From Actinocorallia sp. API 0066 (GTDB lineage Bacteria; Actinomycetota; Actinomycetes; Streptosporangiales; Streptosporangiaceae): DNA of 64,000 bases. Positions 26,698-43,798 of the stretch are shown one piece after another. The notes under the pieces are model-generated. The model ran no database searches and was not told where the DNA came from. It saw only the letters and a list, made by a program, of their open reading frames with translations. Location of the stretch: positions 186,001 to 250,000 of the forward strand of contig NZ_JAJLQY010000004.1 in assembly GCF_020991275.1 (NCBI RefSeq). The letters run 5' to 3'. Both the position numbers and the translations under genes were made by a program. Position 1 is the first letter of the stretch. Each line of letters starts with the position of its first letter.

Positions 26698-27600
26698 ATG
26701 GACGGCATGGAACAGCTCGGGGATTTCCTGAAGTCGCGGCGCGCCCGCATCACCCCGGAAGAGGCGGGTCTGGTCAACTACGGGGGCCGACGAAGGGTGC
26801 CCGGTTTGCGCCGTGAGGAGCTGGCGCAGCTCGCCGGGGTCAGCATCGCCTACCTGACCCGGCTGGAGCAGGGCCACTCGCAGAACGCGTCGGACGCGGT
26901 GCTCGACGCGCTGTCGTCGGCGCTGCGCCTGGACGAGGGCGAGCGCGACCACCTGTTCAACCTCGCCAAGGCCGGGCGTCGCCGCAAGCGCCGCCGCAAG
27001 TGCGAGCAGGCGTCCCCTATGGTGCGGCGGCTCATCGACGCGATGGCCGACATCCCCGTCGTCGTGCTGGGCGGCCGTACCGACGTGCTCGCGTGGAACA
27101 CGCTCGGGCACGCGTTCTTCGCCGGGCACCTCGACCCGGAAAGCCCCTACCGGCCCGACGAGCGGCCGCACATGGCCCGGCTGATCTTCCTGGACCCGCA
27201 CACCCGCGACCTGTACGCCGACGGCTGGGAGGGCAAGGCGCGCGAGTGCGTCCGGTCGCTGCGGTACGCGGCGGGCCGCGACGGCGACGACCCGGCGCTC
27301 GCGTCGCTCATCGGCGAGCTGTCGGTGCACAGCGCGGAGTTCACCCGGCTGTGGGCGGCCCACGAGGTCAGGGACTGCGGCGGGGTCGAGCGCGTCTACC
27401 GGCATCCGCTCGTCGGCGAGGTCACCCTGGCCCAGGAGGTCGCCGCGCTCGACACCGTCGCGGTGGAGCGGCTCGCGCTGTACCACGCGGAGCCCGGATC
27501 CCCCTCGGCGGCGGCGCTGAGCCTGCTCAGGCAGCTCGCCGAGGGCGGCGGCAGGGCCCGGGAAGGCGCCGGGCCCCACTCGCGTCAGCGCACGGTGTAG
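26698..27600 (+). CDS. XRE-family regulator with MmyB-like C-terminal domain
   Basis: 300 aa. The HTH lies at about residues 38-75 (RREELAQLAGVSIAYLTRLE, then QGHSQNASDAVLDALSSAL). The C-terminal 180 residues (SPMVRRLIDAMADIPVVVLG, VLAWNTLGHAFF, HPLVGEVTLAQE) match the MmyB-like ligand-binding PAS-type domain that binds fatty-acid-like ligands. Alternative start ATG 26707 begins MEQLGDFL, closer to relatives. Divergent from the efflux gene, it probably represses it. It overlaps the convergent P450 gene by 16 nt. Confidence 0.92.
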   Translation: MDGMEQLGDFLKSRRARITPEEAGLVNYGGRRRVPGLRREELAQLAGVSIAYLTRLEQGHSQNASDAVLDALSSALRLDEGERDHLFNLAKAGRRRKRRRKCEQASPMVRRLIDAMADIPVVVLGGRTDVLAWNTLGHAFFAGHLDPESPYRPDERPHMARLIFLDPHTRDLYADGWEGKARECVRSLRYAAGRDGDDPALASLIGELSVHSAEFTRLWAAHEVRDCGGVERVYRHPLVGEVTLAQEVAALDTVAVERLALYHAEPGSPSAAALSLLRQLAEGGGRAREGAGPHSRQRTV

Positions 27601-28769
27601 CTGGTAGGCAGCGAGGCGAAGCCCCGGTTGTTGGACGAGCCGACGCGCGCCGCGTTCGCGTCGTCGATCTCGTAGTCGGCGATCACCGAGCTGAGGGTCT
27701 GCAGCGCGATCCGCGTCTCCAGCCTGCCGAGGATCGAGCCCATGCAGTGGTGGCGGCCGTGGCCGAACGCCAGCGAGCCCGACGTGTCACGGCCCAGGAC
27801 GAACGCGTCGGCGTCCTCGAAGACGGCGGGGTCGTGGTTGGCGGCGCCGACCATGAGCAGGATCCGGGACTCGGCGGGGATCGTCACCCCGCGCACCTCC
27901 ACCTCGGTGGTGGTGGTGCGGGCGATGGTCTGCGACGGCGGGTCGTAGCGCAGCGCCTCCTCCACCCAGTCGTCGATCCGGCCGCCGAGCGCGAGCGCCT
28001 TCTGGTCGGGGTGCGACCAGGCGGCGTGCCAGGCGTTGCCGAGCAGCAGCATGGTCGTCTCGATGCCCGCGCCGACCAGGAGGATGAGGATGGAGACGAC
28101 CTCCTCGGGGGTGAGCCTGTCGTCGCCCTCGGCCGCGTCGAGCAGGCCGGACAGCAGGTCGTCCTTGCGGATCTTGGCCCGGTCGATGGTCAGCTCGGTG
28201 TAGTAGCCGACGAGCGCGCCGACCGCCGCCATCGCGGACGGGGGCAGGTCGCGGACGGGCCCGCCGTCGGGCTCCCGGTACATGATGGCCATGCCGAGCT
28301 CGCGGATGCGGTCCCTGTCCTCCTCGGGGACGCCGACGAGCTCGGAGATGACGTCGGTGGGGAAGCCTCCGGCGAAGTGCATCAGGTCGAAGGTGTCGCC
28401 CGAAAGCAGCGGCTCAAGGTGGGCCCTGGCGATCTCGCGGAGGCGCGGTTCGAGCGCCTGCACGCGCTTGTTGGTGAACGCGCTCTGCACGAGGGACCGC
28501 AGGCGGGTGTGCCGGGGCGGGTCCATCGCGACGAACGAGAAGATCTGCTCGGCCTGCGGCCCCCAGAACGCGGGCTCCAGGCGCAGCCCGTTCTTGCTGG
28601 AGTACCGCTCGGAGTCCTTCAGCGCGGCGACGACGTCGGCGTGCAGGGACAGCGCGTAGAAGTCGTCCTCGTCGTTGCGGTAGACGGGCGCCTCCTCGCG
28701 CAGCCGCTTGTACACCGGGTACGGGTCGTTCTGGATGGCGAAGTCGAACGGGCTGTAGTGCAGGTCCAT
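27585..28769 (-). CDS. Cytochrome P450
   Basis: 394-aa soluble bacterial monooxygenase. Heme-thiolate motif FGHGRHHCMG with Cys342; I-helix oxygen-activation motif GAGIETT at 233-239; K-helix E271-A-L-R274. No fused reductase; it would need ferredoxin and reductase from elsewhere. The start is ATG 28769 with AGAAGG 8 nt upstream; the frame is open 22 codons further. The C-terminal SSNNRGFASLPTSYTVR is a common ending of actinobacterial CYP families that act on polyketides, terpenes or steroids, but no biosynthetic backbone gene is present nearby. It is divergent from a methyltransferase gene. Confidence 0.95.
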   Translation of the reverse strand: MDLHYSPFDFAIQNDPYPVYKRLREEAPVYRNDEDDFYALSLHADVVAALKDSERYSSKNGLRLEPAFWGPQAEQIFSFVAMDPPRHTRLRSLVQSAFTNKRVQALEPRLREIARAHLEPLLSGDTFDLMHFAGGFPTDVISELVGVPEEDRDRIRELGMAIMYREPDGGPVRDLPPSAMAAVGALVGYYTELTIDRAKIRKDDLLSGLLDAAEGDDRLTPEEVVSILILLVGAGIETTMLLLGNAWHAAWSHPDQKALALGGRIDDWVEEALRYDPPSQTIARTTTTEVEVRGVTIPAESRILLMVGAANHDPAVFEDADAFVLGRDTSGSLAFGHGRHHCMGSILGRLETRIALQTLSSVIADYEIDDANAARVGSSNNRGFASLPTSYTVR

Positions 28770-28860
28770 ACGCGTGCCTTCTGGGACGAGGGGTGGTCGA
28801 ATGCCGGGTGTCATGACGATCATGTACCAATCCACCGGAAATTACTGGAGAATGCCGTTC

Positions 28861-29679
28861 GTGGACTTCGATGAGGTGCCGCTGGGCATCGACGCGTCAC
28901 GCGCGCACCCCGCGCGGCGCTACGACTACTGGCTGGGCGGCAAGGACAACTTCGTGGTGGACCGCGAGTCCGCGAAGATGATCGCCGGGTCGTTCCCCAC
29001 CATCCGGATGTCGGCCATCGAGAACCGCAGGTATCTGCACCGGGTCGTCCGCTTCCTGGCGGGCGAGGCCGGGATCCGCCAGTTCCTCGATGTCGGCGCG
29101 GGCCTGCCGTCGGCGGGCAACGTGCACGAGATCGCCCAGGAGATCGCGCCGGAGAGCTGTGTCGTCTACGTGGACAACGACCCGATCGTGCTCGTGCACG
29201 CGCGGGCGCTGCTGCGGAGCACCCCCGAGGGCAGGACGGCCTACCTGCACGCGGACCTGCGCGACCCCGGCACGATCCTGTCGATGCCGGACCTCAAGCG
29301 GACCATCGACCTCGACAAGCCCGTCGCGCTGATGCTGCTGGCCGTCCTGCACTTCCTCGACGACGACGAGGAGGCGCACCGCGTCTTCCGGGTGCTGCGC
29401 GAGGCGCTCCCGTCCGGCAGTTACATCGCGCTCAGCCACGCCTCGACCGACGACCTCGCCCCCGACGTCGACCTCGCCGAGCGCGAGGAGCTGAACCGGC
29501 GCGCGGGCATCCCGTTCCGGCTGCGCCACTCCAGCGAGCTCGCCGAACTGTGCGCGGGCCTGGAACTGGTGGAACCGGGCGTCAGCGCGCTGTCGCTGTG
29601 GCGGCCGAACGTGCCGCCGGAGCAGCGGCCGCGGATCGAGAACGTCTGCATGCACGGGCTCGTCGCCCGCGTCCCCTGA
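28861..29679 (+). CDS. DUF574-type SAM-dependent methyltransferase
   Basis: 272 aa. The opening GIDASRAHPARRYDYWLGG, with KDNFVVDRE following, is the actinobacterial DUF574 (Methyltransf_19) signature; the SAM motif is FLDVGAGLPSAGNVHEIA and the acidic loop is VVYVDNDPIV. The start is uncertain: GTG 28861 has GGAG 10 nt upstream; ATG 28852, 28822 or 28801 are in frame but poorly spaced. These proteins are abundant in actinomycetes with mostly unknown substrates. Flanked by two P450 genes, both on the other strand. Confidence 0.92.
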   Translation: MDFDEVPLGIDASRAHPARRYDYWLGGKDNFVVDRESAKMIAGSFPTIRMSAIENRRYLHRVVRFLAGEAGIRQFLDVGAGLPSAGNVHEIAQEIAPESCVVYVDNDPIVLVHARALLRSTPEGRTAYLHADLRDPGTILSMPDLKRTIDLDKPVALMLLAVLHFLDDDEEAHRVFRVLREALPSGSYIALSHASTDDLAPDVDLAEREELNRRAGIPFRLRHSSELAELCAGLELVEPGVSALSLWRPNVPPEQRPRIENVCMHGLVARVP

Positions 29680-29688
29680 CCCCGGCCG

Positions 29689-30882
29689 TCACCAGGTGAC
29701 GGGCAGCGCGCCGACGCCGTAGACGAACTGCTCGTGCCGGTAGTCCACGCCGTCCGGCGGGACGGCGAGGGCCAGGCGCGGCAGCCGTTCGAAGAGCCGG
29801 GGCAGCGCGACGTTCATCTCCAGCCGGGCCAGGGCCGCGCCGACGCACAGGTGCATGCCGTACCCGAACGCGACGTGGTGGCCCTGCGCGCGGCGCGCGT
29901 CGAACGCGTCGGGGTCGCCGGTGAAGTGCGCGGCGTCCCGGTTGGCGGCGGCCACCGAGACGATGACGCCCTCCCCCGCGCCGATCGTCACCTCACCGAC
30001 GCGCACGGGTTCGCGCGCGACCCGCGCCAGGCCGAACTGGATGACCGACAGGTAGCGCAGGAGTTCCTCGGTGACGGCGGCCGCGGCGGCGGGCCCGTCG
30101 CGCAGCACGGCGAGCTGCTTCGGCGAGCGCAGCAGCGCGACGGTGCCGAGCGACAGCATGTTGGCCGTCGTCTCGTGCCCGGCGACGAGCAGCAGCCGCG
30201 CGACGAGCATCAGCTCCTCCTCGGTCAGCTCCCCCGCCCGGACGCGCGGGGCGAGCCTGCCGAGCAGGTCGTCGGAGGGCGCGGCGACCTTGGCGGCGAC
30301 GAGGTCGCCCAGGTAGTCGCCGAGAAGCTGGATCGCGGCGACGGCGCGCACCGGGTCGGCGGTGTTGAGCAGCTCCACGCTGCACCGCTGGAAGAACGCG
30401 TGGTCGGCGTAGGGCACGCCGAGCAGCCTGCAGATCACCAGGGACGGCAGCGGGAGCGTGAAGTCGGCGACGAGGTCGGCGGGCGGGCCCTGCCCGATCA
30501 TCCCGTCGAGCAGGCGGTCGGTGAGCGCGACGATGTCGGGCCGCAGCGCGTTGACCCGCCGCACGGTGAACTCGCCGTAGAGCATCCGCCGCATCCTGGC
30601 GTGCTCGGCGTCGTCCATCCTGAGGAAGGACAGGGCGCCCTTCACCGGGGGCACCGCAAGCAGCCTCGGGAAAGCCGGATGGGTGTCGTCGGAGCTGAAC
30701 CTGCGGTCGGCCAGCACGGCGCGCGCGTCGGCGTGCCTGCACACCAGCCACGGGGTGGTGCCGTCGGCCATCCTGACGCGCAGCGGCGGGCCCTCCCGGA
30801 ACCCGGCGAACTCCTCGGGCGGATCGAGCGGATCGGTGCGCAGCGTCGGCAGGGTCGGCATCTCGTCACGCGGGTCGCCCAT
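29689..30882 (-). CDS. Cytochrome P450
   Basis: 397 aa. Heme motif FGYGMHLCVG followed by AALARLEM, I-helix LVAGHETT, and an ExxR within ELLRYLS. It resembles the CYP105/CYP107-like soluble actinobacterial P450s. ATG 30882 is preferred because GAGAGG is 8 nt upstream; GTG 30888 two codons earlier is too close. It converges with the methyltransferase gene, 9 nt apart. It shares only general identity with the P450 at 27.6-28.8 kb, so this is not a recent duplication. Substrate unknown. Confidence 0.95.
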   Translation of the reverse strand: MGDPRDEMPTLPTLRTDPLDPPEEFAGFREGPPLRVRMADGTTPWLVCRHADARAVLADRRFSSDDTHPAFPRLLAVPPVKGALSFLRMDDAEHARMRRMLYGEFTVRRVNALRPDIVALTDRLLDGMIGQGPPADLVADFTLPLPSLVICRLLGVPYADHAFFQRCSVELLNTADPVRAVAAIQLLGDYLGDLVAAKVAAPSDDLLGRLAPRVRAGELTEEELMLVARLLLVAGHETTANMLSLGTVALLRSPKQLAVLRDGPAAAAAVTEELLRYLSVIQFGLARVAREPVRVGEVTIGAGEGVIVSVAAANRDAAHFTGDPDAFDARRAQGHHVAFGYGMHLCVGAALARLEMNVALPRLFERLPRLALAVPPDGVDYRHEQFVYGVGALPVTW

Positions 30883-31924: not shown

Positions 31925-32296
31925 TCAGACCTCGACGTTCTCCTCGATGCGCTTGAGGTGGTGCCTGGCCAGCGCCAGGTTGGCCCGCCCCCGGTCCAGC
32001 GCCGCGTACATGAACAGGCCCTGCCCGCTGCGGCTCCGGAGCGGCCGGATGATGTGGTACTGCTTGTCCAGCGTGATCAGGATGTCCTCGATCGACTCCT
32101 TCAGGCCGAGCTGCTCGATCGTGCGCATCTTCGACCTGACGACCTCGGTGTTGCCCGCCGCCGCGATCTGCAGGTCGAGCGCCTTGGAGCTACCGAGCAC
32201 GCCCAGCGCCATGCCGCTGCTGTAGTCGACGATCGCCGCGCCGAGGGCGCCATCGATCGACATCATCTCCTTGAGCGACTGGTCCAGGTTCGACAC
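31925..32296 (-). CDS. Roadblock/LC7-domain protein (last gene of roadblock operon)
   Basis: 123 aa, a single roadblock/LC7 fold. Visible: SLKEMMSIDGALGAAIVDYS start, conserved middle GNTEVVRSKMRTIEQLGL, and C-terminal YAALDRGRANLALARHHLKR. In bacteria such proteins often dimerise and act on Ras-like GTPases. The start is GTG 32296, with AAAGGA 7 nt upstream. It lies within the 3' end of the preceding gene (107-nt overlap in another frame). Partner GTPase unknown. Confidence 0.85.
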   Translation of the reverse strand: MSNLDQSLKEMMSIDGALGAAIVDYSSGMALGVLGSSKALDLQIAAAGNTEVVRSKMRTIEQLGLKESIEDILITLDKQYHIIRPLRSRSGQGLFMYAALDRGRANLALARHHLKRIEENVEV

Positions 32297-32684
32297 TGAT
32301 GGTCCTTTCGACGGTGGTTTCCGGAACGATGGCGGCGATGGCCCGTGCGACGGGCCTGGCCTCCAGATGGAGCCGACCGAGGGTGACCTCGGGACCGGCC
32401 AGGATCGCCAGGGCCGCGCGCGGCCCCGCGGCGTAGATCGCGACGTGTCCGCCGCGGTTGCGGATGACGACCTCCTCGAAGTCGCCGTCCGCGGCGGTGC
32501 GGGCGACACGGTCGGACAGGGAGAGCTCGGTGGCGGCCATCGCCGCCATCCCCTCGGGTTCGAGGGAGTCGGGCAGGTCGCTGGCGACGAGGAACCCGTC
32601 GCAGGTCGCGACCAGGGAGCCGGTCATGTGCGGCACCCTCAGGCGAAGCGCGTGCAGTTCTCTCCAGATCCGGTCATCACTCAT
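32190..32684 (-). CDS. Roadblock/LC7-domain protein with out-of-frame C-terminal tail
   Basis: 164 aa. Residues 1 to about 125 form a roadblock domain (HMTGSLVATCDGFLVASDLP, GMAAMAATELSLSDRVART, GHVAIYAAGPRAALAILAG). The last roughly 36 residues are Arg/Gly/Gln-rich because the frame reads through the start of the next gene. The ATG at 32684 overlaps the PATAN gene stop by 4 nt. Such a long overlap is unusual for this operon, where others overlap by 4 nt; a sequence error or a recent loss of the natural stop would explain it. Confidence 0.8.
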   Translation of the reverse strand: MSDDRIWRELHALRLRVPHMTGSLVATCDGFLVASDLPDSLEPEGMAAMAATELSLSDRVARTAADGDFEEVVIRNRGGHVAIYAAGPRAALAILAGPEVTLGRLHLEARPVARAIAAIVPETTVERTISVEPGPVAQGDDVDRWRPRRGDRRLQQRHGAGRAR

Positions 32685-33487
32685 TCCAGCTCCCTCAGCG
32701 CGTCGTGCAGCCGCGCCAGCAGTTCGAGATCGGCATGTGCCCATTTCGCCGGGAACGCCCCGTCGCGGGGCTGGGACTCCCAGCGGGGCGCGCCCCCGAT
32801 CCGGGGGGCGGGCGCCCCGTCTTCCGCTCGGGCTCCCCCGTCGTCGGATCCGGGCGGCCGGACCAGCGCCGAGGCGACCAGGCCCCGGACGGCGAGGACA
32901 CACCCGAAGCGGGTCCGTCCGAGCTCCCGCGCGAGCCCGGACGGGGTCTTGCGCCCGTCGGCGTTCAGCAGGATCTCCGCCTGGAGACCCGTGAGGATCA
33001 CCCGCTGGCGGGACACCCTGCGGAGCGGCCGGACGGGCTCGTCATCGGCCAGCGGCGACGGCCACGCCGCGTCCAGCAGGACCCGGCGCCGCCGGATCTC
33101 CACGCACAGCGTCACCGGATCCACGGCGAGGCACTCCGGCCAGTAGGGCGCCTTGCCGTCCTCGAAGCGCGGCTCGTGCCCCGAGCGGGCCAGGAAGAAC
33201 GCGGCGTCGAAGAAGTGGATGAGGGCGTGCGCCTCGAACTCGGCGGCGCCGAGCCGGGCCGGGCTCGCGGGGCCATGCCCGGGGCCCTGGGCGCGCAGCA
33301 GCTCCCAGCCCTGCTCGGTCAGCCGCCCGGACGCCGTCAGCAGCTCGCGCAGGCTCGGCGTGTGCGCCGTCTCGGCGTGCACGACGGCGCCGTCGACGAG
33401 GTGGAACGCGCCGTCGTCGCCGAGCGAGAGGGTGCCGGTGGCACCCGCCTCCGCGAGGCTCTCCAGGCGCGCGCGGACCGTCCTCAT
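32681..33487 (-). CDS. PATAN/DUF4388-like protein
   Basis: 268 aa. The first 60 residues (GATGTLSLGDDGAFHLVDGA, VVHAETAHTPSLRELLTASG) resemble the PATAN (DUF4388) domain found in two-component-linked signalling proteins. The middle has HFFDAAFFLARSG and the end is helical (LELLARLHDALRELE). It is joined to roadblock genes on both sides by ATGA overlaps, suggesting a shared complex. No DNA-binding or GTPase motif is seen. Its exact family is uncertain. Confidence 0.75.
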   Translation of the reverse strand: MRTVRARLESLAEAGATGTLSLGDDGAFHLVDGAVVHAETAHTPSLRELLTASGRLTEQGWELLRAQGPGHGPASPARLGAAEFEAHALIHFFDAAFFLARSGHEPRFEDGKAPYWPECLAVDPVTLCVEIRRRRVLLDAAWPSPLADDEPVRPLRRVSRQRVILTGLQAEILLNADGRKTPSGLARELGRTRFGCVLAVRGLVASALVRPPGSDDGGARAEDGAPAPRIGGAPRWESQPRDGAFPAKWAHADLELLARLHDALRELE

Positions 33488-33861
33488 CCGGCCGCCAGGT
33501 CGCGCAGCACGTCCCGCAGCCGGTGCCGGGCCAGCGCGACGTTGCCCCGGCTGCGGTCCAGCACCACGTGCAGGCACAGCCGGGCGTCGGTGGCGGTGGT
33601 GACGAGCGCCAGCAGGTGGTGGCCCGCCGCGCCCGTGACGGTGATCTCCTCGATCTCGTCGCCGGTGGCGGCCGCGGCGAACGCGGGCTCGGCCAGCACC
33701 ATCCGGACCAGGTCGGCGGCGCCCGCCGCCCGCTCGGCCGCCTCGTCGGCGGTCATGCCCGCCGACGCGACCGCGAGGCCGGTGGCGGCGTCGAGGAGGG
33801 TCGCGGCGCGCACCCCGGGGATCGCCATGACGAGCGTCAGGCAGTCCTCCATCGCCGGCAC
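33484..33861 (-). CDS. Roadblock/LC7-domain protein (first gene of roadblock operon)
   Basis: 125 aa: MEDCLTLVMAIPGVRAATLL opening, GDEIEEITVTGAAGHHLLAL, and RSRGNVALARHRLRDVL near the end fit a roadblock domain related to the two downstream. The start GTG 33861 follows AAGGGGGG; in-frame GTG codons at 33885 and 33882 would overlap a palindrome and are less likely. It leads a four-gene unit roadblock-PATAN-roadblock-roadblock that lacks the histidine kinase, DUF742 and GTPase genes of classical conservons. Confidence 0.83.
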   Translation of the reverse strand: MPAMEDCLTLVMAIPGVRAATLLDAATGLAVASAGMTADEAAERAAGAADLVRMVLAEPAFAAAATGDEIEEITVTGAAGHHLLALVTTATDARLCLHVVLDRSRGNVALARHRLRDVLRDLAAG

Positions 33862-38836: not shown

Positions 38837-41115
38837 CGGGGGCGCGGGCCCGGGTGCGGATCCGGGTGGAGGGGATCGTGCAGGGCGTCGGGTTCCGGCC
38901 GTTCGTGCACGAACTCGCCGGACGGCATGGGATCGCCGGTTTTGTCGGCAACGACGCCGAAGGTGTGTTCGCCGAGGCGGAGGGCGAACCCGGCCCGCTC
39001 GACGCGTTCGTCGCCGACCTCAACCGGTGCGCGCCGCCCCTCGCCGTCGTCGAACGGGTCGTCGCGATCCCCGCCGAACCGGTCGGAACACTCGGGTTCG
39101 CCATCGTGCCGAGCACGTCGAGCACGCCGGGCAAGGCGAGGTCGGCCCTGGTGTCGCCCGACACCGCGACCTGCGCGGACTGCCTGCGCGAGATGGCCGA
39201 TCCGGCCGACCGGCGGCACGGGTACCCGTTCACCAACTGCACCGCCTGCGGCCCCCGCTACACGATCACCACCGACGTTCCCTACGACCGCCCCAATACG
39301 ACGATGCGGGACTTCGCCCTGTGCGCGGACTGCGCGCGTGAGTACGCGGACCCCGCCGACCGCCGCTTCCACGCGCAGCCCGTCTGCTGCCCCGCGTGCG
39401 GCCCCTCCCTCAGCTTCCTGGACGCCGAAGGCAAGCCCCTCGAAGGCGACCCCCTGGAGACGGCTGCCTCCTGGCTGCGCGCAGGCAGGATCCTCGCCAT
39501 CAAGGGGCTCGGCGGCTATCACCTTGCGGTCCTCGCCTCGGACGGGCCCGCCGTGGCCCGTCTCCGGGAGCGCAAGCGGCGCGAGGAGAAGCCGTTCGCC
39601 GTCATGGCGCCGAGCCTGGCGGCGGCCCGGACGCTCGTGGAGATCGACGACGCCGCCGCTGCCGTGCTCACCGGCCCGCGCCGTCCCATCGTGCTGCTCC
39701 CCCGGCTGCCCGGCGCCGGGGTCGCGGAAGAGGTGGCGCCCGGAGCGCCGGAACTGGGCGTCCTGCTGCCCTACACGCCGCTGCACCATCTGCTGGCCGC
39801 GCGGGTGGCCGCGCCGTTCGTGCTGACCAGCGGCAACCTCTCCGACGAGCCGATCGAGCACAACGACGAGGCGGCGCTCGCCCGGCTGGGCCCGCTCGCC
39901 GACGCGCTCCTCACCCACGACCGCCCGATCCACGCGCGCGCCGACGACTCGGTGGTACGCCTCGTCAGAGGCCGGGAGGTGCCTTTGCGGCGCTCGCGCG
40001 GCAGCGCCCCCGCCCCGCTGACGACGCACCGTCCCTTCGCGCGGCCCGTCCTCGCGTGCGGGCCCGAGCTGAAGAACACCTTCTGCCTCGCGCGGGGCTC
40101 ACGCGCGTTCGTCTCCCCACACGTCGGCGACCTGGAGAACCACGCGACGCTGACCGCCTACGCCCAGGGGATAGCGCGCTACAGGCGGCTGTTCGGGATC
40201 TCGCCGGAGGTCGTCGCGCACGACCTGCATCCGGAGTACCTGTCCACGAAGTACGCGCTGGAGCTGGCCGAAGCCGAGGGACTGGAGCTCGTCGGGGTGC
40301 AGCACCACCACGCCCACGTCGTGTCGTGCCTCGCCGACAACGGCGTGGCCGGGCCCGTCCTCGGGATCGCGTTCGACGGGCTCGGCTACGGCCCGGACGG
40401 CACCCTGTGGGGCGGCGAGGTCCTCGTCGCGGACGCGGCGGGCTACCGGCGCGCGGCCCATCTCGCGCCCGTCCCGATGCCGGGCGGCGCGGCGGCGATC
40501 CGCGAGCCCTGGCGCATGGCCGCCGCGTACCTGGACGCCGCCTACGCCGGAGACGTCCCCGAGCTGCCCCTCATGGCCCGGCACGCCGACCGCTGGTCCG
40601 CCGTGACGTCGCTGGCCCGCTCCGGCACGCACGCCCCGCTCACGTCCAGCGCGGGCCGTCTCTTCGACGCCGTCGCCGCCCTCGCCGGGCTCCGCGACAC
40701 CGTCCGCCACGAGGGCCAGGCCGCCATCGCCCTCCAACACGCCGCCGACCCCTCGGAGCCCGGCTCCTACCCCATCGACATCTCCGACGGCGACCCCATG
40801 GTCCTCTCCTGCGCCCCCCTGATCCGCGCCGTCACCGACGACATCCGCAGGTCCACCCCGCCCCCCGTCATCGCCGCCCGCTTCCACAACGCCCTGGCAG
40901 AAGCCGTCCTCACCACCGCCAGAACCCTCCGCTCCCGCACCGGCCTCACCACCACCGCCCTCACCGGCGGCGTCTTCCAGAACCCCCTCCTCCTCACCAC
41001 CCTCACGACCGCCCTGGAAACCTCCGGCTTCCACGTCCTCCTCCACCACAGAGTCCCGCCCAACGACGGCGGCCTCTCCCTAGGCCAAGCCGTCATAGCC
41101 GCAGCTCACGCCTGA
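38833..41115 (+). CDS. hypF: Hydrogenase maturation carbamoyltransferase HypF
   Basis: 760 aa, cytoplasmic. It activates carbamoyl phosphate and transfers the carbamoyl group to the C-terminal cysteine of HypE for cyanide synthesis. Domains in order: acylphosphatase (VRIRVEGIVQGVGFRPFVHE), two zinc fingers (CADCLREM...NCTACG and CADCAREY...CCPACG), YrdC-like (ILAIKGLGGYHLAVLASD), and the Kae1-like C-terminal domain (VGVQHHHAHVVSCLAD, GIAFDGLGYGPDGTLWGGE). All catalytic regions are intact. The GTG start overlaps the SIS gene stop. It ends 178 nt from convergent hypE, with degenerate repeats in between. Confidence 0.97.
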   Translation: MTGARARVRIRVEGIVQGVGFRPFVHELAGRHGIAGFVGNDAEGVFAEAEGEPGPLDAFVADLNRCAPPLAVVERVVAIPAEPVGTLGFAIVPSTSSTPGKARSALVSPDTATCADCLREMADPADRRHGYPFTNCTACGPRYTITTDVPYDRPNTTMRDFALCADCAREYADPADRRFHAQPVCCPACGPSLSFLDAEGKPLEGDPLETAASWLRAGRILAIKGLGGYHLAVLASDGPAVARLRERKRREEKPFAVMAPSLAAARTLVEIDDAAAAVLTGPRRPIVLLPRLPGAGVAEEVAPGAPELGVLLPYTPLHHLLAARVAAPFVLTSGNLSDEPIEHNDEAALARLGPLADALLTHDRPIHARADDSVVRLVRGREVPLRRSRGSAPAPLTTHRPFARPVLACGPELKNTFCLARGSRAFVSPHVGDLENHATLTAYAQGIARYRRLFGISPEVVAHDLHPEYLSTKYALELAEAEGLELVGVQHHHAHVVSCLADNGVAGPVLGIAFDGLGYGPDGTLWGGEVLVADAAGYRRAAHLAPVPMPGGAAAIREPWRMAAAYLDAAYAGDVPELPLMARHADRWSAVTSLARSGTHAPLTSSAGRLFDAVAALAGLRDTVRHEGQAAIALQHAADPSEPGSYPIDISDGDPMVLSCAPLIRAVTDDIRRSTPPPVIAARFHNALAEAVLTTARTLRSRTGLTTTALTGGVFQNPLLLTTLTTALETSGFHVLLHHRVPPNDGGLSLGQAVIAAAHA

Positions 41116-41279
41116 CCTCCCATGGCACCGCTCCGCAGGCCGAGCCGCCGTAGCAGCCGCCCATCCACGGCTCCGGTCGCCAGGGCCAGGCAGTCGTAGC
41201 CGCCACGCGCCCCTGACCTCTCGGGGGCCGCGTTTCCCGGGGCGGGCCGTCATGGCCGCCCGGCGCCTCTGGCTTCCCG
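41092..41279 (+). repeat. Three imperfect 31-nt repeats over the hypF 3' end and intergenic region
   Basis: The pattern GTCRTRGCCGC-N9-CTGRCYTCYC occurs at 41092-41122 (covering the last codons and stop of hypF), 41193-41223 and 41249-41279; copies 1 and 3 also share the downstream CCC(A/G)TGGCA. They look like degenerate copies of the hypF terminus. Intervals are 101 and 56 nt. Assigned by eye. Confidence 0.45.
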
Positions 41280-41293
41280 TGGCAGCCGATCCG

Positions 41294-42373
41294 TCAGCAG
41301 ATTCGGGGGAGGGGGTCGCCTACCAGGACGTCGACTATTCGGGTGCCGCCGAAGGTGGTGTTGAGGAGGACCAGGGCGGAGGGGTCCTCGGTCACCCGGC
41401 CTATCTGGGTGGCGTCGGCGGAGAGGGGGTGGGAGCGGAGGGCGGTCAGGGCGGTTTCGGCGGCGGTAGCGGAGACGACAGCTACGAAGCGGCCCTCGCA
41501 GGCCACGTAGAGGGGGTCGATGCCCAGAAGTTCACAGGCGCCCGCGACGGGGGGCTGGACCGGGACGGCCGGTTCGTCGACGGTGATCGTCAGACCGGCG
41601 GCCCTGGCGATCTCGTTGAGGACGGTGGCGACGCCGCCGCGCGTCGCGTCGCGCATCACGCGGACGCCGTCCGGGACGGCGTCGAGCAGCGCCGCGACGG
41701 GCCCGTTCAGGGGCGCGGTGTCGGAGCCGAGGTCGGCGGCGAGGTCGAGTTCACCGCGCGCGAGCATGATGGTGACGCCGTGCTCGCCGATCGGCCCGGA
41801 CACCAGGATCGCGTCGCCGGGCCGTACCGCGCCGGGGCCGAACGTGCCCGGCCGGTCCAGCACCCCGACCCCGGCGGTGGTGATGTAGCACCCGTCGCCC
41901 TTGCCCCGCTGGACGACCTTCGTGTCACCCGTCACGATCGCGACCCCCGCGCGCGCGGCGGCCTCGCCCATCGACGTGGCGATCCGCCGCAGGTCCGCCA
42001 CCGGAAACCCCTCCTCCAGGACAAAAGCGGCGGACAGGTGCGACGGCCGTGCCCCGGACACCGCCAGGTCGTTGACCGTCCCGTTCACCGCGAGGTCCCC
42101 GATGTCGCCGCCGGGGAAGAACACCGGCGACACGACGAAGGAGTCCGTCGTCATGACCAGGCGCGGCCCGCCCGTCCCGAGAGCGACGACGGCGCCGTCC
42201 CCCAGCGCCTCCAGGGCCGGGTTGGCGAAGGCGGTGACGAACACGTCGTCCACAAGGGTCTGGGTGGCCTTGCCGCCCGCCCCGTGCGCGAGCGTGATCC
42301 GCTCCTCGCGGACCTTCGGGGCGCGGCGCCGGGCGCGGGCGATCCGGTCGAGGACCTGCTGTTCGGTGGTCAT
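41294..42373 (-). CDS. hypE: Hydrogenase expression/formation protein HypE
   Basis: 359 aa. It dehydrates the carbamoyl group received from HypF on its C-terminal cysteine to thiocyanate, supplying CN ligands for the NiFe site. The C-terminus ends PRIC with the acceptor Cys as last residue. N-terminal ATP-binding features (ERITLAHGAGGKATQTLVDD, FFPGGDIGDLAVNGTVND, VTGDTKVV) are those of the PurM/AIR synthase-like family. The ATG at 42373 overlaps the hypD stop by 4 nt. Last gene of the long minus-strand hydrogenase operon. Confidence 0.97.
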   Translation of the reverse strand: MTTEQQVLDRIARARRRAPKVREERITLAHGAGGKATQTLVDDVFVTAFANPALEALGDGAVVALGTGGPRLVMTTDSFVVSPVFFPGGDIGDLAVNGTVNDLAVSGARPSHLSAAFVLEEGFPVADLRRIATSMGEAAARAGVAIVTGDTKVVQRGKGDGCYITTAGVGVLDRPGTFGPGAVRPGDAILVSGPIGEHGVTIMLARGELDLAADLGSDTAPLNGPVAALLDAVPDGVRVMRDATRGGVATVLNEIARAAGLTITVDEPAVPVQPPVAGACELLGIDPLYVACEGRFVAVVSATAAETALTALRSHPLSADATQIGRVTEDPSALVLLNTTFGGTRIVDVLVGDPLPRIC

Positions 42374-43497
42374 GCGTGGGTCGCCTCCCGGACGCGGTCC
42401 CTGGTGAACCGCCCGTAGTTGTAGTAGGCGGCGCAGGCCCCTTCGGAGGAGACCATGCACGTGCCGATGGGTGTCTCCGGGGTGCAGGCGGTGCCGAACA
42501 CCTTGCACTCCCACGGCTTGATGACGCCCTTGAGGACCTCGCCGCACTGGCACGCCTTGGGGTCGGCGACCCGGATGCCGGGCAGCGCGAACACCTTCTC
42601 GGCGTCGTGCGCGGCGTACTCGTCGCGCAGCCGGAGCGCGGAGTGGGAGATGAAGCCGAGGCCGCGCCACTCGAAGTGCGGCCGCAGCTCCATGGTCGTG
42701 GCGATGGCCTCCAGCGCGCGTGTGTTGCCCTCCCACGGGACGACGCGCGTGTACTGGTTCTCCACCTCGCACCGGCCGTCCGTGAGCTGCTGGAGCAGCA
42801 TGGCGACGGATTGCAGCAGGTCGAGCGGCTCGAACCCCGCGCAGACGAGCGGCCTGCCGTACCGCTCGGCGATGAACTCGTAAGGCCGACAGCCGATGAC
42901 TGTCGAGACGTGGCCGGGCCCGAGGAACCCGTCGAGCCGCAGGTCCGGCGAGTCGAGGATCGCCTTGATCGCCGGAATGATGGTGACGTGGTTGCAGAAG
43001 ACCGAGAAGTTGGCGATCCCCTCGGCGGCGGCCCGCAGCACCGTGACGGCCGTGGACGGCGCGGTCGTCTCGAATCCGATGGCCATGAACACCACACGCC
43101 GGTCCGGGTTCTCCCGGGCGATCTTGAGCGCGTCCAGCGGCGAGTAGACCATCCGGATGTCCGCGCCCTCGGCCTTCGCGTCCAGGAACGAGCCCGTGCC
43201 TCCGGGCACCCGCAGCATGTCGCCGAACGAGGTGAGGATGACGTCCGGCTCATGGGCGATCGCGATGGCGTCGTCCACCCGGCCCATCGGGATGACGCAC
43301 ACCGGGCAGCCGGGCCCGTGGACCAGCTCGACGGCCTCGGGCAGGTGGTCTTCGATCCCGTGCTTGTAGATGGTGTGGGTGTGGCCGCCGCACACCTCCA
43401 TGAACTTGTAGTGCCTGCCGGGTTCGCACAGCGCGGCGATCCGCCCCGACAGCGCCCGTGCCTTGTCCGCGTCGCGGTACTCGTCGACGAACCGCAT
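42370..43497 (-). CDS. hypD: Hydrogenase formation protein HypD
   Basis: 375 aa. An Fe-S protein forming the HypC-HypD scaffold on which Fe(CN)2CO is built. Conserved motifs: FMEVCGGHTHTIYKHGIEDH, HGPGCPVCVIPMGRVD, GFETTAPSTA, VIGCRPYEF, and C-terminal cluster cysteines in ACQCGEVLKG, ECKVFGTACTPETPIGTCM. The length is normal. It starts ATG 43497, 28 nt after hypC, and overlaps hypE by 4 nt. Confidence 0.97.
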   Translation of the reverse strand: MRFVDEYRDADKARALSGRIAALCEPGRHYKFMEVCGGHTHTIYKHGIEDHLPEAVELVHGPGCPVCVIPMGRVDDAIAIAHEPDVILTSFGDMLRVPGGTGSFLDAKAEGADIRMVYSPLDALKIARENPDRRVVFMAIGFETTAPSTAVTVLRAAAEGIANFSVFCNHVTIIPAIKAILDSPDLRLDGFLGPGHVSTVIGCRPYEFIAERYGRPLVCAGFEPLDLLQSVAMLLQQLTDGRCEVENQYTRVVPWEGNTRALEAIATTMELRPHFEWRGLGFISHSALRLRDEYAAHDAEKVFALPGIRVADPKACQCGEVLKGVIKPWECKVFGTACTPETPIGTCMVSSEGACAAYYNYGRFTRDRVREATHA

Positions 43498-43525
43498 GCC
43501 CCCGCGCCCCCTCGGTCCCTAGATG

Positions 43526-43798
43526 TCAGGTGATGTCGGATTCGGCGAGCGCGTCGAGCTCGTCGGTGTACGCCTGGCCCAGCCCCTCAAGGAGCTTGAG
43601 CGTCGCGGCCGCCTCCGCCTCGTCGATCCTCGACATGGCGAAGCCGACGTGCACGAGCACCCAGTCGCCGGGCCGCACGCCGTCCGGGCCGAGCAGCCCC
43701 ACGCTGATGGGCCGCCGCACCCCGGCGACCTCGACGAGGGCGAGGTCCTCCCGGTCCGGCAGGAGTTCCACGATCTCCCCTGGAATGCCCAAGCACAT
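43526..43798 (-). CDS. hypC: Hydrogenase assembly chaperone HypC (canonical)
   Basis: 90 aa beginning MCLGIPGEIVELLPDREDLA; Cys2 is the ligand used to bind the iron precursor with HypD and to contact the large subunit. The OB-fold core DWVLVHVGFAMSRIDEAEA is typical. In this operon it precedes hypD and hypE, so the CN/CO assembly module is contiguous. A second, divergent HypC-like protein is encoded on the plus arm at 37.9 kb. Confidence 0.96.
   Translation of the reverse strand: MCLGIPGEIVELLPDREDLALVEVAGVRRPISVGLLGPDGVRPGDWVLVHVGFAMSRIDEAEAAATLKLLEGLGQAYTDELDALAESDIT

Follow-up and report, generated by a model that had tools for sequence, protein, structure and literature searches.

A four-gene operon in a 64,000-nucleotide stretch of the Actinocorallia sp. 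API 0066 genome (the window) encodes three roadblock proteins (g1, g3 and g4) and one PATAN protein (g2). On balance, we favor, by a little, the reading that this operon is a regulator or scaffold for small Ras-like GTPases, which would be supplied in trans by the conservons of the genome. As judged from sequence comparison, this is the likeliest reading of a conserved unit that has no local GTPase and whose g2 and g4 families lie beside GTPases elsewhere. The CvnC-like half of g2, the LPxR motif, the relocating tail and the unlinked GTPases of the genome itself also point to it. The original prediction had named either an unlinked GTPase or a GTPase-independent complex; both still stand, with the balance of evidence on the side of an unlinked GTPase.

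The operon and its four proteins

Three LC7-domain proteins and a PATAN-like protein had been predicted at this locus, and our analysis bore this out, with four overlapping genes in tandem (Table 1).

Table 1. Features of the roadblock-PATAN operon in the window
Feature	Position in window	Strand	Description
Operon g1-g2-g3-g4	33861-31925	minus	Four tandem genes: roadblock, PATAN protein, roadblock, roadblock
g1	33484..33861	minus	Roadblock protein, g4 paralogue; 125 aa from GTG 33861
g2	32681..33487	minus	268 aa; N-terminal PATAN/DUF4388 domain, then CvnC(DUF742)-like winged helix, disordered linker and amphipathic helix at the C-terminus
g2 C-terminal helix	32684..32728	minus	ELLARLHDALREL and flanking residues; resembles CvnC C-terminus; CvnC-trained matrix score 15.2
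g3	32190..32684	minus	MglB/CvnB-type Robl_LC7 protein; Pfam Robl_LC7, E=1.2e-14
g4	31925..32296	minus	Roadblock protein, 123 aa; member of a deeply conserved subfamily that Pfam Robl_LC7 mostly misses

The GTG start of g1 is preceded by AAGGGGGG, with an alternative ATG at 33852, and g4 also starts with GTG, preceded by AAAGGA. The g1/g2 and g2/g3 junctions are 4-bp overlaps (ATGA). The overlap of g3 with g4 is 107 bp long (32190-32296), because g3 lacks the stop codon at or near the g4 start where g3 of relatives terminates. The overlapping stretch, read out of frame by g3, makes up its last ~35 codons, and the roadblock domain of g3 is complete despite this run into g4. A same-genus relative (locus L042) has no g3 at all, and therefore g3 looks dispensable in the genus. 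The genes called near the operon in the window include no histidine kinase, and no GTPase was found in or beside it. A scan for sigma-70 promoters and terminators, a kind of scan that fits actinomycetes poorly, found nothing, and the PADLOC defence-system models gave no match.

The genome has a second locus (L126, C12:462011-463581) with the order g4-g3-g2, without g1 and without a GTPase. The neighbours of the operon in the window are not conserved with it, including a nearby methyltransferase-like gene between two P450-like genes (27585-30882). Genes resembling HypF, HypE, HypD and HypC (hydrogenase maturation) in sequence lie at 38866-43798 in the window, downstream of SIS-domain-like genes.

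The roadblock fold was recognized in g3 by Pfam, in g4 by its structural model and in g1 by homology to g4. The g4 protein falls below the Pfam cut-off for Robl_LC7. Its AlphaFold model (pLDDT 91) matches MglB and Ragulator roadblocks with a TM of about 0.8; profile comparison gave weak LAMTOR5 matches, and the g4 family had no convincing homologue among PDB sequences. Relatives of g4 with 46-82% identity over the length are found in Actinomycetota, Chloroflexota, Pseudomonadota, Acidobacteriota, Myxococcota and others. The g1 protein alone gave no Pfam match. The g1 and g4 families aligned with each other at E=7.6e-33 (hhalign), and by this alignment g1 is a clear paralogue of g4. In the tree, all g1 proteins fall on one side of a branch with support 100*, therefore the g1/g4 pair is old. 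Profile comparison of g3 with g4 detected no relationship.

The window g2 alone matched DUF4388/PATAN weakly (E=0.054, below the cut-off). DUF4388 was detected in 16 of the 19 g2 family members (best 3.9e-8), and distant g2 relatives in GTPase-containing loci matched it up to 9e-21; g2 is thus assigned to DUF4388 at the family level. The AlphaFold model of g2 (pLDDT 85) contains a low-confidence linker (218-248) and a terminal helix (254-267), and a fold search of the PDB with this model gave nothing significant. The C-terminal half of g2 aligned with CvnC (DUF742) of its own genome with E=1.5e-5 and probability 80, in a pairwise hhalign comparison only, and winged helices match easily. The aligned region takes in the winged helix as well as the helix at the very C-terminus. 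The Pfam DUF742 model matched one of the 19 family members, weakly. The kinase, DUF742 and the GTPase had all been noted as missing. Our results agree for the kinase and the GTPase. For DUF742 the absence is not clean, given the alignment of the g2 C-terminal half with CvnC and the LPxR of the g2 family.

Distribution and relation to known systems

Searches for g4 recovered it from 108 of the 151 genomes in the order and, class-wide, from 75 of 297. The set as a whole is conserved in soil actinobacteria. Nonomuraea, Nocardia, Thermocatellispora, Planosporangium and Streptomyces share the arrangement g1-g2-g3-g4; in a second locus type g3-g2-g1 is split against a divergent g4. Because of this recurrence, the gene set is more than a chance arrangement. 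No MglA-type GTPase was found within six genes in any of the 68 actinobacterial g4 entries that have g1 or g2 within six genes (0/68; the loci are a sample and not independent, with many from Streptomyces). Among the remaining g4 entries from actinobacteria, 4 of 22 have such a GTPase within six genes (Demequina plus three more divergent cases); in Pseudomonadota, 14 of the 15 entries do. No flanking gene that could hint at function is common to most loci; a few are common within sub-groups, which are for the most part related Streptosporangiaceae or Streptomyces. A g3-g1-like-g4 order in Comamonadaceae was rejected as a g1 case, because its middle 121-aa protein fell below the threshold with a better g1 model. 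PATAN and the g4 subfamily are also linked by domain fusion, in single ORFs of the type receiver-PATAN-g4 (L112:2423-3631 and L098:7143-8357) with no GTPase nearby.

The tree of g3-type proteins separated four groups cleanly: operon g3 (57 rows, support 94), conservon CvnB (15 rows, 99*), Group 3 (8 rows, 97*) and the roadblocks of PATAN-GTPase triads (16 rows, 91). It was built on 135 columns with some long branches excluded, and the branching order among the groups is unsure. The separate g3 clade and the gene neighbourhoods fit the exclusively orphan actinobacterial MglB clade described by Wuichet and Sogaard-Andersen (PMC4316618), which is likewise MglB-type, actinobacterial and without flanking conservon genes. 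This clade probably includes the operon g3, matched by description and not sequence by sequence. The four-gene set and its tails are not described in the text on the orphan clade in that paper (PMC4316618).

The conservons (cvnA-D; MglA Group 2) and the operon have in common a roadblock protein and, as far as the alignment of g2 with CvnC suggests, a winged helix of CvnC type followed by a similar helix at the C-terminus. Most g2 relatives also have the LPxR of CvnA in their tails. In contrast to conservons, the operon has no histidine kinase and no GTPase, contains a PATAN domain and encodes three roadblocks, two of them from another subfamily; its g3 lies outside the CvnB clade, and the conservons examined have nothing that corresponds to g1 or g4. 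The Group 3 MglA systems of Pseudomonadota are described as a receiver-like/winged-helix protein, MglA and one or two MglB (PMC4316618). Like the operon here, they combine a g4-type and a Robl_LC7 roadblock with a winged-helix protein in a single operon, but they include a GTPase. Homology of g2 to their receiver-like/winged-helix protein was considered and rejected (hhalign probability 0.5%, no detectable homology). The triads found in other families of the class (L189-L204) resemble the operon in having a protein of PATAN, winged helix, linker and terminal helix beside a Robl_LC7 roadblock. They differ in that a GTPase is present, g1 and g4 are missing and their g3 forms a separate branch. 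The eukaryotic Ragulator (LAMTOR1-5) also combines several roadblock subunits with a partner that has a flexible segment; this is an analogy only: the operon has no Rag GTPases, and its complex and scaffold role are putative.

A relocating C-terminal tail

The tail of g2 was scored with a 13-residue matrix trained solely on seven CvnC C-termini. The window g2 reached 15.2, compared with control lines of 7.8 (99%) and 13.4 (99.9%). Sixteen of the 29 g2 proteins from four-gene operons were above the 99% line and one was on it, and the remainder scored 4.0-7.5. The LPxR motif occurred in 15 of 28 non-redundant g2 tails versus 52 of 1153 control ORFs (Fisher 9e-13), and in 17% of shuffled tails. 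The window g2 retains the helix and has no exact LPxR. LPxR is present in most conservon kinases of this genome, and has been described for the C-termini of conservon kinases (PMC4316618).

The tail is also found outside g2. In loci reduced to g1+g4 or g1+g3+g4, g1 carries a fused tail, and 7 of 9 of these were over the 99% line versus 0 of 37 short g1 proteins. In 13 Streptomyces loci of the second type (within L078-L108), a separate, disordered and low-complexity ORF lies between g2 and g3 and ends LPVR...PSLDMLRRVRRGLRALPESD or nearly so, with a CvnC-like C-terminal helix. This ORF was first noticed when one such sequence scored best among 1364 supposed control ORFs; simple gene calling misses it in most of these loci. 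By its matches in relatives, the conservon-type tail is portable, being located at the end of g2, fused to g1 or in a stand-alone ORF. The LPxR arginine was discussed in 2015 in connection with a missing arginine finger (PMC4316618). That LPxR is kept in loci without a GTPase favors docking at least as much as catalysis.

GTPases elsewhere and the possible roles of the operon

The Actinocorallia genome encodes seven MglA-type GTPases, each of them part of a conservon with CvnB and CvnC. In the order, 148 of 151 genomes have MglA-type GTPases, so co-occurrence within the order is uninformative because nearly all genomes have them. In the class, they were found in 73 of the 75 g4-bearing genomes and 106 of the 222 others (counts that ignore phylogeny). 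Every genome seen with an operon-type g2 (strong g2 match) also has conservon GTPases. With a threshold of E<=1e-5, g4 was found without any MglA-type GTPase in four Arthrobacter/Paenarthrobacter genomes, one betaproteobacterium and one acidobacterial MAG, always as a solo gene and never as the four-gene operon. The solo g4 of Arthrobacter/Paenarthrobacter (L097, L103, L104 and L116) has a conserved position after a gene that is SerB-like as judged from its sequence.

A class-wide search with the g2 family found distant relatives adjoining GTPases. In 16 of 20 loci, most of which were picked for GTPase proximity, a PATAN protein lies directly beside a GTPase, and 15 of these are triads of roadblock, PATAN protein and GTPase. 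The 16 GTPase-adjacent PATAN proteins end in SL[LM]LRL[IM]AGVRGL. Proteins of the g2 and g4 types thus adjoin GTPases elsewhere, and it is the four-gene operon of actinomycetes that stands out as the exception.

In the mechanism that we favor, the four proteins would form a cytosolic roadblock complex. The old paralogues g1 and g4 would probably pair as a heterodimer, g3 would be the MglB/CvnB-like roadblock of the complex, and g2 would be its adaptor, with the PATAN domain, the CvnC-like winged helix and a flexible tail bearing the CvnC-type helix. The roadblocks may present GTPase-binding surfaces, and the g2 tail may dock onto a roadblock or a GTPase. The complex would then regulate or scaffold one or another of the conservon GTPases in trans, perhaps with a GAP- or GEF-like effect. 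For the conservon GTPase MfpB, a GEF and a GAP have been reported, namely MfpC, a homologue of CvnC, and MfpD, a homologue of CvnB, respectively (PMC13015309, PMC13343842), which makes a role of the operon in the nucleotide cycle plausible. As the operon has the same attachment tail as GTPase-signalling operons, it probably works with GTPases encoded elsewhere. Several results count against action in trans. Each of the seven GTPases of the genome is already provided with a CvnB and a CvnC of its own; the window g2 has no exact LPxR, and its match to CvnC is a pairwise hhalign result only; and g4 is kept in the Arthrobacter, betaproteobacterial and acidobacterial genomes without a detected MglA-type GTPase.

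These last genomes also speak for a GTPase-independent complex, in which the roadblocks and the PATAN/winged-helix protein form a stable adaptor or a transcription-regulating assembly without a Ras-like GTPase. The constant absence of a local GTPase (0/68 loci), the winged helix predicted in g2 and the fusion of g4 to receiver and PATAN modules with no GTPase nearby (L112, L098) are in line with such a complex. However, the GTPase-free genomes carry the solo g4 and not the four-gene operon, conservon GTPases accompany every operon-type g2 seen, and the conservon-type tail has been retained; we regard this reading as possible but rather unlikely. It is doubtful that the roadblocks are a pure Ragulator-like scaffold without any Ras-like GTPase, in which the conservon-type tail would be a roadblock-docking peptide and not act on GTPases. 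The tail of g2, and also of CvnA and CvnC, could be a mere docking peptide for roadblocks, which would make the operon a self-contained docking assembly whose LPxR and helix do not act on a GTPase. Its presence in loci that have no GTPase, in operons encoding roadblock proteins, and its shifts between g2, g1 and a separate ORF agree with this, but this helix is also the end of CvnC, a family reported to act as GEF, and of the PATAN protein in the triads that contain a GTPase, and we find this explanation improbable.

The operon could also be a conservon remnant that has locally lost its kinase and GTPase. It has CvnC-like and LPxR-like pieces in common with conservons, and the genome contains two closely related units of conservon-type kinase and CvnB without CvnC/CvnD (L139, C23 near 33 kb; L140, C12 near 397 kb). 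Against this stand the separate clades of operon g3 (94) and conservon CvnB (99*), the 68 operon-type loci without a single GTPase, and the lack of conservon counterparts of g1 and g4. The absence of the GTPase thus held when set against simple local loss, which is therefore rejected on the neighbourhoods and the distinct g3 clade, and the remnant reading, refuted by the same evidence, is very improbable.

Orphan MglBs made up 328 of 749 prokaryotic MglBs in the 2015 survey, which reported none of them as characterized (PMC4316618). PATAN genes near MglB/MglA, orphan actinobacterial MglB and LPxR in conservon kinases were already known from it (PMC4316618). The open-access papers searched contained no earlier description of the four-gene set, of g1 and g4 as a subfamily pair, of the part of g2 that resembles CvnC or of the relocating tail; descriptions elsewhere are possible. 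The gene set outlined by our analysis is widespread and probably contains the orphan MglB clade of actinobacteria. It offers two handles, a roadblock pair that looks obligate and a conservon-type tail that is portable. Should the operon act in trans on the GTPases of conservons, it would add a regulatory layer across conservon boundaries in Streptomyces and relatives; if it does not, it would represent a GTPase-free use of roadblock proteins.
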